Of a stretch of 64,000 nucleotides of DNA, positions 20,341 to 32,832 are shown piece after piece. The stretch is from assembly GCF_002224125.1 (NCBI RefSeq), contig NZ_NCSM01000011.1, positions 248,001-312,000 on the forward strand. Reading direction: 5' to 3'. The first letter of the stretch is position 1. Each line of letters opens with the position of its first letter. A program made the position numbers and the translations under genes. The notes below the pieces were generated by a model. It searched no databases. It worked only from the letters and a program-made list of their open reading frames with translations, and was not told where the DNA came from. The DNA is from Streptomyces sp. NBS 14/10. GTDB taxonomy: Bacteria; Actinomycetota; Actinomycetes; Streptomycetales; Streptomycetaceae.

Positions 20341-21225
20341 ATGAAGATCACGCCGCAAGTCGACCAGAAAATGGGTGCCACGGTCACCGAGTTCGACGTG
20401 GAAACGCTGTCGACATCCGACCTGCTCCACCTCAAGGATGCGATCTATCAGGAGAAGTTACTGATCCTGAAGGACCAGCACCTCAGTCCGCAGCAGTTCA
20501 TCGCGCTCGGAAAGGCACTCGGTACGATCGAGGTCTATTACGAGCCGATGTACCACCATCCCGACCACGAAGAGATATTCGTGTCCTCCAGCACCCCGGA
20601 GTCGACACAGCAGGTGGGGGTCCCCAAGACCGGTGCGTTCTGGCATGCGGACTACTCGTTCATGCCCAGGCCGTTCGGCATCACGATGACCTACCCACAA
20701 GTGGTCCCCAAGACGAACCGGGGAACGCACTACATCGATATGGGAAAGGTGTTCGCCGGCCTGCCCGAAGAACTGCGTTCGGTGGCGAGAACGACCAAGG
20801 GACTGCACAGCGCGAGGCGCTATTTCAAGATCCGGCCGTCCGATGTCTACCGCCCCATCTGTGAACTCGTGGACGAAATCGAGAAGAAGACCCCGCCGGT
20901 GATCCACCCCACGGTCTTCGTCCACCCGGTCACCGGGGAAGAGGTGCTGTATGTCAGCGAGGCCCTGACCTGCGAGCTGCACGACCAGCAGGGCCGGGTG
21001 CTCGAGGACGACTCGCTGCACCGACTGCTCGAGGCCAGTGGTCAGCTCGACACGACGTTCGGCAACGAGCACATTCACACCCAGACGTTCACCGAAGGCG
21101 ACCTGCTCATCTGGGACAACCGCAGCCTCGTCCACCGCGCGCTGCACAGCCCCACACCGGAGCCCAGCACCTCGTACCGGGTGACCGTCCACGACGACCA
21201 TCCCTTCTTCGGGACGACGACATGA
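20341..21225 (+). CDS. Fe(II)/2-oxoglutarate oxygenase, isonitrile-forming type (ScoE/Rv0097-like)
   Basis: TauD-fold oxygenase of about 294 residues. The iron ligands are His102 and Asp104 in AFWHADYSF and His265 in SLVHRA. The stretches YYEPMYHH (66-73), IFVSSS, GVPKTGAFWH, FKIRPSDVYRP and LLIWDNRSLVHRA match what I recall of M. tuberculosis Rv0097 and Streptomyces ScoE, which turn an N-carboxymethyl beta-amino acid into an isonitrile by oxidation and decarboxylation. The start MKITPQVDQKMGATVTEF aligns with the Rv0097 N-terminus; an ATG at 20317 is the alternative. It overlaps the next gene as ATGA. Family membership is firm; isonitrile formation is inferred from the neighbours. Confidence 0.85.
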   Translation: MKITPQVDQKMGATVTEFDVETLSTSDLLHLKDAIYQEKLLILKDQHLSPQQFIALGKALGTIEVYYEPMYHHPDHEEIFVSSSTPESTQQVGVPKTGAFWHADYSFMPRPFGITMTYPQVVPKTNRGTHYIDMGKVFAGLPEELRSVARTTKGLHSARRYFKIRPSDVYRPICELVDEIEKKTPPVIHPTVFVHPVTGEEVLYVSEALTCELHDQQGRVLEDDSLHRLLEASGQLDTTFGNEHIHTQTFTEGDLLIWDNRSLVHRALHSPTPEPSTSYRVTVHDDHPFFGTTT

Positions 21226-21788
21226 CGGCCGGCCCCCTCGCTCGGCCGGCCGCCGGAACCGCCACGGCACACCCCGACGACCCGGCACTGCGTGAACGGG
21301 TGCTGCGTCCCTACCGCACGAACTGCCGGTATCTCGGCCCCGCGGAGGTACGCCTGGAGAACGAGGCCGTCAGCGCCTCCGGTGCGTTCCGCATTGGCGA
21401 GTCCTGCTACATCGACGACACCGGCCACTTCAACGCGGTCGAGTTCAACATCTGCTTCAACCAGATCGCCTACTACCTGATCGCCAAGTGCGTCCAGAAC
21501 CGGCTGCCTCCCGTCTTCGCTGCCTGGACCCTCGACGACTACTGGCAGCGCCAGCTCTCCGACATTCTGATCACCCGGTACACCAGCAGATTCCACCGCG
21601 CGATCCGGGGACAGGAGTTCCGCGGCGAGCTGAGCTTCACCGACTTCAAGCTGCGCTCCGGTGAGAACGGCAAGGCGCCGTTGGCCCTCATCGAGAGCGA
21701 GTGCCGGTTCTGGGACGAGGGCGGCGGACGGTGCACGGGTGAGATCCAGATCGCGCTGACCAACCTGCCGCAGGGTGCGCCGCGATGA
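21222..21788 (+). CDS. FcoT-type thioesterase-fold protein, ScoD/Rv0098-like
   Basis: Hotdog-fold protein of 188 residues of the FcoT family. Diagnostic stretches are IGESCYIDDTGHFNAVEFNI, CFNQIAYYL and ECRFWDEGGGRCTGEIQIAL, which parallel M. tuberculosis Rv0098. In isonitrile lipopeptide pathways the homologue ScoD adds glycine to an alpha,beta-unsaturated acyl-ACP and releases the N-carboxymethyl beta-amino acid used by ScoE. It sits between the ScoE-like and ACP genes with 4-base overlaps on both sides, the same partnership as in Rv0097-Rv0101. A plain acyl thioesterase role remains possible. Confidence 0.85.
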   Translation: MTAGPLARPAAGTATAHPDDPALRERVLRPYRTNCRYLGPAEVRLENEAVSASGAFRIGESCYIDDTGHFNAVEFNICFNQIAYYLIAKCVQNRLPPVFAAWTLDDYWQRQLSDILITRYTSRFHRAIRGQEFRGELSFTDFKLRSGENGKAPLALIESECRFWDEGGGRCTGEIQIALTNLPQGAPR

Positions 21789-22174
21789 CCGAACCGGCGA
21801 ACGCGGTGGATCTGCTGCTCTCACTCCCCCGGGCGCGCCGCAGGCAGACGCTGGCGGGCCTGGTCGATGCCGAGGTCAGAGAGGTCCTGCGGCTTCCGGA
21901 AGACGCCGAGACGGGCGCAGACGTCAGCTTCTTCGACCTGGGCATGACCTCGCTCCGGCTGACCGAGCTTCGTCAGCGTCTGACCCGGATGCTGGACCGG
22001 AGGATCGAGATCGAGGCGCTGTTCGAGCACCCGACGTCCCAGGGCCTGACCGATCATCTCGCGGACACCGTGCTCTCCGACGTGTTCCCCAGCGCCGTTC
22101 ACGCACCCGCACCACAGAACGCTCAGGAGCTGCCGCCGATGGTCCAGGAGATTCTGCGGAACCTCTACAGCTGA
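21785..22174 (+). CDS. Stand-alone acyl carrier protein
   Basis: ACP of 129 residues. The carrier domain spans about residues 20-95 with the attachment motif FFDLGMTSLRLTEL, in which the usual Asp-Ser is Thr-Ser; the Ser should carry phosphopantetheine. The C-terminal ~30 residues (PPMVQEILRNLYS) form a short helix, perhaps for docking to the next synthase. It overlaps the FcoT gene by ATGA and lies 39 bases before the PKS gene. By position it corresponds to ScoB/Rv0100, the carrier that receives the acyl chain from the acyl-AMP ligase. Confidence 0.85.
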   Translation: MTEPANAVDLLLSLPRARRRQTLAGLVDAEVREVLRLPEDAETGADVSFFDLGMTSLRLTELRQRLTRMLDRRIEIEALFEHPTSQGLTDHLADTVLSDVFPSAVHAPAPQNAQELPPMVQEILRNLYS

Positions 22175-32023: not shown

Positions 32024-32094
32024 GCCGTCCGTCGGGCCCGATCCGTGCCATCGGGCCCGATCCGTAGATCCGTACCAAAGGAGCCAGAAGAACC

Positions 32095-32832
32095 ATGCGT
32101 GCCGAAGATGTGCGCCGCCACTACGCCACCCCGATCGGCGCCCCCGCCTACCCGCCGATGCTGCCCAAATACATCGATCGCGAGTACCTCAACATCTTCT
32201 ATCGAACGGATCCGGACGCCGTCAGAGCCGTGACACCGGAGCCGCTGGAGGTCGAGGACCCCATCGTGCGGTTCGAGGTGATGAAGATGAACGAGGTGAC
32301 CGGGTACGGCCCCTACACCGAGGCCGGACAGGCCATCTCGGTCAGCTACCAGGGTGAACCCGGTGAGTATCTGCGCGCGATGTACCTGGACAGCTTCCCC
32401 GCCGCCGCCGGGGGACGCGAGGTCGGCGCCTATCCCAAGGTCCTGGGCTCACCGTCGCTCTACCTGGACAACGCCGCGCTCGTCGGCACCCTCGACTACG
32501 GCTCGATCCGGGTGGCCACCGCCACCATGGGCTACAAACACCACGCCATGGACCCCGACGACGCCCGTGCGCAGATCAGCACCCCCACCTACATGCTCAA
32601 GTTCGTCCCGGACTACGACGCGTCGATGCGGGCCTGCGAGCTGGTGCGCACGGAGATCACCGACATCGAGGTCAAGCAGGCGTGGACCGCGCCGGCCAGG
32701 CTGCAACTGTTCGAGCACGTCCTCGCTCCCCTGGCCGACCTGCCCGTTCTGGAGATCATCTCCGCGAGCCACATCGTCACGGACCTGACGCTCGGTCCGA
32801 TGAAACCGGTACACGACTACCTCGATCGCTGA
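32095..32832 (+). CDS. Acetoacetate-decarboxylase-like enzyme with altered Lys pair
   Basis: ADC-fold protein of 245 residues that closes the biosynthetic cluster. The motif GAYPKVLGSP places the Schiff-base lysine at residue 115, the same number as in the Clostridium enzyme, but the adjacent Lys116 that lowers its pKa is Val. The paralogue at 10560 keeps Lys-Lys. Known family members outside acetone formation catalyse aldol, dehydration or cyclisation reactions through an imine, so a tailoring role on a beta-keto intermediate is plausible (inference). The ATG has AAAGGAG upstream. It is followed by the convergent conflict locus 13 bases later. Confidence 0.82.
   Translation: MRAEDVRRHYATPIGAPAYPPMLPKYIDREYLNIFYRTDPDAVRAVTPEPLEVEDPIVRFEVMKMNEVTGYGPYTEAGQAISVSYQGEPGEYLRAMYLDSFPAAAGGREVGAYPKVLGSPSLYLDNAALVGTLDYGSIRVATATMGYKHHAMDPDDARAQISTPTYMLKFVPDYDASMRACELVRTEITDIEVKQAWTAPARLQLFEHVLAPLADLPVLEIISASHIVTDLTLGPMKPVHDYLDR

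Follow-up and report, generated by a model that had tools for sequence, protein, structure and literature searches.

The subject of this work is a putative operon in a 64,000-nucleotide stretch of Streptomyces sp. NBS 14/10 DNA (C13:248001-312000, from a source genome of 12.1 Mb in 127 contigs), referred to below at its full length as the window. An open reading frame (ORF) and Pfam survey of the window placed eight same-strand genes at 20317-32832 on the + strand. They encode, in this order, an Fe(II)/2-oxoglutarate (Fe/2OG) oxygenase, an FcoT protein, a free-standing acyl carrier protein (ACP), a type I polyketide synthase (PKS), a second ketosynthase (KS2), a ligase, a cytochrome P450 and an acetoacetate-decarboxylase-like enzyme (ADC). 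The PKS is a single module with ketosynthase (KS), acyltransferase (AT), dehydratase (DH), ketoreductase (KR) and ACP domains. The features are as follows.

20317..21225, + strand: predicted Fe(II)/2OG oxygenase/decarboxylase, ScoE type (NCBIfam NF049937, PDB 6dch, ScoE residues)
21222..21788, + strand: predicted enoyl-ACP glycine-adding thioesterase, FcoT/ScoD/CmiS1 type (Pfam FcoT, likeness to SAV606)
21785..22174, + strand: free-standing ACP (PP-binding 47.5 bits; GMTSL site)
22214..27634, + strand: type I PKS module, KS-AT-DH-KR-ACP, without an enoylreductase (ER) (Pfam domains)
22271..23398, + strand: KS domain of the module, canonical Cys-His-His (CHH) (Pfam, reading of catalytic positions)
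23858..24676, + strand: AT domain, GHSIGE and HAFHS (Pfam, motifs)
24935..25786, + strand: DH domain, HMVVGQVVFP and PPAILDSALQ (Pfam, motifs)
26483..27019, + strand: KR domain, NYAAGN (Pfam, motif)
27311..27511, + strand: ACP of the module (Pfam PP-binding)
27631..29088, + strand: free-standing degenerate KS2 (catalytic Cys present, Tyr in place of the second His, altered HGTGT motif)
29136..30722, + strand: acyl-AMP (acyl-ACP/CoA) ligase, 528 aa (AMP-binding 277.4 bits; tree)
30743..32023, + strand: cytochrome P450, heme-ligand motif FSAGAHHCVG and AGLETT (Pfam, motifs)
32095..32832, + strand: ADC (Pfam ADC 260.8 bits; NCBIfam PRK02265)

ATGA-type overlaps occur at three joints (oxygenase/FcoT, FcoT/ACP and PKS/KS2), and at the remaining four the genes stand 20 to 71 bases apart. 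The P450 start was picked by its ribosome-binding site; for the oxygenase, an in-frame ATG at 20341 is an alternative start, used in an earlier sequence-only reading of this DNA. The genes and motifs named in that reading are all present on the + strand, as seen from ORF translations and Pfam, and its statement that no nonribosomal peptide synthetase (NRPS) is encoded here also holds: the window has no condensation-domain match, those of the contig lying beyond it at C13:407561-426247. A sigma-70 promoter scan returned 0 sites against 1.0 expected, which is uninformative, and a literature search found no paper on the operon 20317-32832.

Streptomyces milbemycinicus, about 95% identical to the window in DNA, has all eight of these genes and shares the next gene downstream. 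Between the two, dN/dS is 0.15-0.38 for all eight genes (0.194 for KS2 and 0.15 for ADC), and all eight are thus under purifying selection. The home-made simple gene caller overlooked the S. milbemycinicus ACP and the FcoT gene of locus L205; absences were therefore rechecked by tblastn.

The isonitrile cassette

The oxygenase matches Pfam TauD (118.4 bits) and passes the NCBIfam ScoE equivalog NF049937 (460.3 bits; cut-off 400), and its alignment with ScoE (PDB 6dch, 389 bits) spans almost the full length. All 14 ScoE residues checked are identical in it: Y96, Y97, Y101, H132, D134, R157, K193, R195, D198, R201, E209, H295, H299 and R310, where the numbering of the three iron ligands is the one we assume for ScoE. 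Roles of such residues, Tyr96, Lys193, Arg310, Arg157 and His299 among them, are given in the available text of PMC7949033. Among 296 relative genomes, 19 (the window's own is one) contain 23 matches of at least 52% identity, and below these no match exceeds 32%; this set is well beyond chance.

The FcoT protein scores 224.7 bits with Pfam FcoT (cut-off 27) and 161.6 bits with SAV606 (PDB 5wsy). Enzymes of the SAV606 type add glycine to an enoyl thioester and serve both beta-amino-acid starters and isonitriles, and the substrate of the FcoT homologue CmiS1 is a PKS-made enoate; CmiS1/SAV606-type enzymes serve isonitrile pathways, as stated in the available part of PMC11284099. By analogy with these relatives, we infer the reactions of the FcoT protein and the oxygenase. 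As regards the free ACP, in L007 a carrier domain stands on the PKS itself, N-terminal to the KS, at the place where the window has its free ACP; this layout fits a putative role of the free ACP as a loading carrier.

Distribution of the cassette with and without a polyketide synthase

A scan of genome contigs with an FcoT alignment yielded 174 relatives, the best 80 of which were kept in order of similarity to the window's FcoT, which biases the list towards its kin. An oxygenase stands with a type I PKS in 34 of these loci and with both PKS and NRPS in 2, while 14 combine it with an NRPS and 11 with neither at the chosen thresholds (weak NRPS matches are present in 8 of the latter: L064, L066, L071, L072, L074, L075, L077 and L081). 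The other 19 are without an oxygenase, 17 having a PKS and 2 having no KS-AT frame. The locus of Amycolatopsis sp. AA4, the reference for amycomicin, is not among the 80, and Streptomyces sp. JH14 (L019/L191/L192) and S. virginiae NRRL ISP-5094 served as stand-ins for it. JH14 was chosen because the amycomicin cluster is reported as a 100% antiSMASH match in that strain (PMC10037901, available text) and because its genome has a single FcoT match; S. virginiae THA-960 is reported to carry an amycomicin cluster in the accessible portion of PMC13273461.

The pairing of an isonitrile cassette with a PKS is the amycomicin-type architecture and is already known. The novelty implied when the sequence-only reading set a PKS in place of an NRPS is not upheld, and the candidate of a novel system of this kind was rejected on the 36 of 80 FcoT loci with oxygenase and PKS and on the amycomicin papers, as far as their available text goes (PMC10037901, PMC9967187).

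In one family 2 of 35 genomes matched the AA4 FcoT query, and in another 10 of 341, with a best identity of 57% and no near-identical match; a one-genus search for the locus of Micromonospora sp. NBC_01796 matched 25 of 150 genomes (best identity 55%); and a class-wide draw of 394 genomes had matches in 4, one of them the window's own genome, while the best of the other three reached 64%. Metagenome contigs hold nearer relatives (P0122 and P0244). Three planctomycete loci (L070, L076 and L080) have oxygenase, FcoT and a type I PKS, L070 and L080 with an NRPS match as well, and their oxygenases form a distant clade.

Oxygenase and FcoT phylogeny

Trees were quick IQ-TREE runs with SH-aLRT support, and their labels (NRPS, ER-containing PKS, ER-less PKS) were assigned manually. 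Dropping near-copies left 77 of the 82 locus rows for the oxygenase tree, which also held 24 database proteins and 2 PDB stretches, and 88 of the 101 for the FcoT tree, which also held 14 proteins and 1 PDB stretch. The window's oxygenase falls in a 24-row set (SH-aLRT 99) of 5 ER-less PKS rows, itself included, 18 database proteins and 1 other. A different set, of 14 rows (SH-aLRT 99), contains ScoE and SAV607 and is made up of 12 rows labelled NRPS, 1 unclassified locus and 1 database protein. The FcoT tree has a corresponding 14-row set (SH-aLRT 97). In both trees the window, L002, L006, L007 and L027 form one clade apart from the NRPS-linked ScoE/SAV607 set. The trees thus bear out the earlier assignment of both proteins to isonitrile-type families and place them with PKS-linked loci. 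The AA4 FcoT (P0055) groups with that of JH14 and one other Amycolatopsis protein.

The ER-less module and the degenerate second ketosynthase

No ADH/ER domain was found by Pfam in the window's module. Among the loci checked in this way, ER-type domains are present in L009 and L043 and absent from L036 and L007; elsewhere the DH-KR distance is only a proxy for an ER. This distance was computable in 30 of the 36 oxygenase and PKS loci, being 502-658 residues in 25 and 189-260 residues in 5 (L002, L007, L027, L036 and L037), and it is 201 residues in the window. With no ER and with its DH motifs kept, the module is plausibly what would be expected of an enoyl donor, as the sequence-only reading had argued. 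The HAFHS motif of its AT is presumably of the malonyl type. The tree has 36 oxygenase-linked module KSs, and 30 of them, those of S. virginiae and JH14 included, make up the 30-row clade (support 100) to which the window's module KS belongs. Two further oxygenase-linked PKS frames, in L058 and L060 (1264 and 1315 residues), contain KS, AT and DH and have no KR match.

KS2 has Cys-His-Tyr (CHY) at its catalytic positions and not the Cys-His-His of condensing enzymes, a degeneracy that the sequence-only reading did not mention. When 7994 candidates were scored, 1648 passed E 1e-60, and 118 of the best 120 have Tyr in place of the second catalytic His (SQY 50, CQY 45, CHY 22 and SHY 1, against CQH 2). 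The KS2 clade of the KS tree has 13 rows. In a KS without the second His, decarboxylative condensation is not expected, and acyl chain transfer is possible.

A related unit in another genome (L203/L204, G107:C1:5684001-5722000) consists of an ACP, a PKS of ER-type length, a KS2 (SQY) and a ligase, with chorismate-enzyme and amine-oxidase genes as neighbours; no oxygenase or FcoT was found by tblastn in its 38 kb. The candidate of KS2 as an isonitrile-specific protein was rejected on this ACP-PKS-KS2-ligase unit: since it is without oxygenase and FcoT, KS2 goes with the PKS unit and not with isonitrile chemistry, and for the same reason the ligase there cannot load the isonitrile acid of the present pathway.

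P450 and decarboxylases

The best NCBIfam match of the P450 is TIGR04515 (P450-derived glycosyltransferase activator), at 252.6, under the cut-off of 343. The ADC passes PRK02265 (349.7 bits; cut-off 150). It has Arg29, Glu61, Glu76 and Lys115, to which we presume the roles usual for the family, with Lys115 as the Schiff-base lysine; the reference Lys116 is Val here. ADC-like genes occur in 2 of 38 genomes searched: S. milbemycinicus has a 97% copy in the cluster and a 68% copy elsewhere, and a Burkholderia has one of 49%, which was not placed.

Two sister loci in the window's oxygenase/FcoT clade end in P450, ferredoxin-like, P450 and UbiD genes (L181:15103-19939 of Lentzea xinjiangensis and L186:15165-19506 of S. 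olivaceoviridis); the UbiD and ferredoxin of L181 were identified by tblastn to the L186 copies. UbiD is unrelated to ADC. No UbiD was found in any other fetched stretch, L183/L184 included; most of the stretches extend no further than about 10 kb from FcoT. If P450 desaturation preceded the UbiD step, the UbiD loci would yield vinyl isonitriles, which may be candidate products of L181 and L186.

Proposed pathway and alternatives

We read the operon as a reduced, decarboxylase-ended relative of amycomicin-type isonitrile-PKS clusters in which the PKS acts first, and we give this reading a probability of about 0.7. The relation to amycomicin, suggested by the sequence-only reading, is supported by shared gene content and by the KS tree. 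The ligase and ACP would load an acid onto the PKS, whose ER-less module would add a malonyl unit, reduce and dehydrate to give a (2E)-enoyl thioester. The FcoT protein would then add glycine at C3 and release an N-carboxymethyl-beta-amino acid, and the Fe/2OG oxygenase would oxidise and decarboxylate the glycyl arm to give a beta-isonitrile acid. The P450 and the decarboxylase may tailor this acid to a short, possibly carboxyl-free isonitrile, and KS2 may transfer acyl chains instead of condensing them. We only propose the sequence of PKS and isonitrile steps, the role of KS2, the P450 and ADC steps and the product, which is most likely either a short beta-isonitrile acid or a compound derived from one by decarboxylation.

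Several points weigh against this pathway. ADC enzymes with such an active site use beta-keto acids, and a KS-AT-DH-KR module does not obviously supply one. Only the window and S. milbemycinicus show an ADC adjoining the cluster, and its retention there is weak evidence because the two are about 95% identical. The genome of L007, a locus of the same clade, is devoid of ADC, and the stretches fetched from it contain no UbiD. Absence of an ER and presence of a decarboxylase are not strictly tied, and Kitasatospora humi (L036), also ER-less, lies outside the window's clade in both the oxygenase and FcoT trees. The FcoT protein scores 208.6 bits, under the cut-off of 250 of the NCBIfam ScoD equivalog NF049938, which all 15 members of set A1, AA4's included, match (best E 2.3e-68). 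Finally, in a ligase tree where the NRPS loci L021, L032 and L075 carry the wrong label PKS, the window's ligase groups beside NRPS-linked ligases, not with those of JH14 or S. virginiae.

The main difficulty, that ADC by its family should use a beta-keto acid, favours an alternative in which the isonitrile is formed first. There, an enoyl-ACP of primary metabolism would go to FcoT, and the beta-isonitrile acid would be reloaded by the ligase and ACP for extension by the module, which might go no further than the beta-keto stage, so that release and ADC would give an isonitrile methyl ketone. The Schiff-base lysine is present as this requires, and the ligase grouping agrees with it, as does the frequent presence in NRPS-linked loci of a ligase adjoining oxygenase and FcoT without a PKS module; in amycomicin biosynthesis, too, the isonitrile acid is reportedly extended after its formation. 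However, the module keeps its KR and DH motifs, both of which would have to be skipped for a beta-keto product, and JH14 possesses a distinct set (ACP-KS-SDR) suitable for extension, which the window's operon lacks. We regard this order of events as unlikely, though by no means far-fetched. It and the PKS-first pathway both predict late loss of the carboxylate.

It is very improbable that the operon is a decayed, product-less remnant of an amycomicin cluster. The ER and extension genes of the reference cluster are indeed missing, but the frames are intact, the catalytic residues are kept, and the same eight genes stand in S. milbemycinicus; a dead cluster was rejected on the purifying selection on all eight. 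Least probable of all is a CmiS1 macrolactam-type pathway to a beta-amino-acid starter with no isonitrile, for which the shared FcoT and the oxygenase-less loci ('macrolactam' being read from layout) speak, but which was rejected since the operon has no match to the DAO family (PF01266), and against which stand its complete ScoE-type oxygenase, its lack of a multimodular PKS and the position of its FcoT outside the oxygenase-less clade.

A wider idea may be put forward tentatively, as possible though doubtful. ER-less isonitrile PKS operons could be a branch ending in oxidation and decarboxylation, the latter recruited twice from unrelated families (ADC here, UbiD in the sister loci), and could give small neutral isonitriles, such as vinyl isonitriles or isonitrile methyl ketones, and not long amycomicin-like acids. 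KS2 would be a dedicated non-condensing partner of this type of PKS, in acyl transfer or chain-length control.

To our knowledge, few isonitrile antibiotics of the amycomicin class have been described. Amycomicin itself is a nanomolar inhibitor of FabH in Staphylococcus aureus, according to the available text of PMC13273461. The eight-gene operon is small enough for reconstitution, which would offer a direct test of a PKS-made enoyl acceptor and of the role of a degenerate KS, and search rules demanding an NRPS would miss such NRPS-less loci.

Genomic neighbourhood

Upstream of the oxygenase, on the opposite strand, lies a gene for a 1793-aa CHAT protein, which together with an HTH/NB-ARC/TPR regulator-like gene occupies 11948-19948. 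The interval 12068-20117, covering most of the regulator-like gene and the CHAT gene, had no match in the S. milbemycinicus stretch fetched. Downstream of ADC, a run of genes on the - strand (32846-41852) encodes DO-GTPase2, GAP1, a second DO-GTPase2, HSP70-like and AAA proteins, resembling a GTPase-centred conflict or signalling system.

Comparison with known systems

The loci L006/L181 (Lentzea xinjiangensis), L027/L186 (S. olivaceoviridis) and L007/L183 (S. griseoaurantiacus), of the window's oxygenase/FcoT clade, share with the window the order oxygenase-FcoT-PKS-KS-ligase with a P450 nearby, and L007 (by Pfam) and L027 (by its short DH-KR distance) are likewise ER-less. Unlike the window, they have a PKS from another KS clade and a canonical second KS; their P450s are about 30% identical to the window's, and UbiD stands in place of ADC in L181 and L186, with neither in L183.

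Cremimycin-type systems (CmiS1/CmiS2) share the FcoT-type enzyme, which in them receives an enoate made by a PKS (PMC11284099, available part), and they have an FAD oxidase and a macrolactam PKS where the window's operon has an Fe/2OG oxygenase and no macrolactam PKS. Isonitrile lipopeptide clusters (the Sco, SAV606/607 and Rv0097-Rv0101 types) have homologous oxygenase, FcoT and ligase, but they contain an NRPS, absent from the window, and the window's oxygenase and FcoT belong to a different clade.

Amycomicin-type clusters have in common with the window the oxygenase, FcoT, ACP, a single PKS module of the same KS clade, a degenerate KS2 and the ligase. Their modules carry an ER, as in L009 (by Pfam) and JH14 (by DH-KR distance), and the amycomicin-like cluster of Micromonospora humidisoli is given as KS-ATm-DH-ER-KR-ACP in the available text of PMC9967187; the window's module has none. 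In JH14, two P450s stand between oxygenase and FcoT (L191/L192), and an alpha/beta hydrolase, ACP, FabF-like KS, SDR and MFS gene follow the ligase, all absent from the window's operon. There, the ligase is followed by P450, ADC and then opposite-strand GTPase-type genes, the search for the extension set having covered this region and not the rest of the genome. Directly upstream of its oxygenase, JH14 has genes for a PEP mutase, a class V aminotransferase and an FAD-NAD(P)-binding protein (L191:3095-9222). The window's own P450 is about 29% identical to those of the amycomicin type, and of the two kinds of cluster only the window's has an ADC. What is distinctive here, then, is the ER-less module, the lack of the hydrolase-ACP-KS-SDR set, the terminal decarboxylase and a KS2 of the degenerate family.

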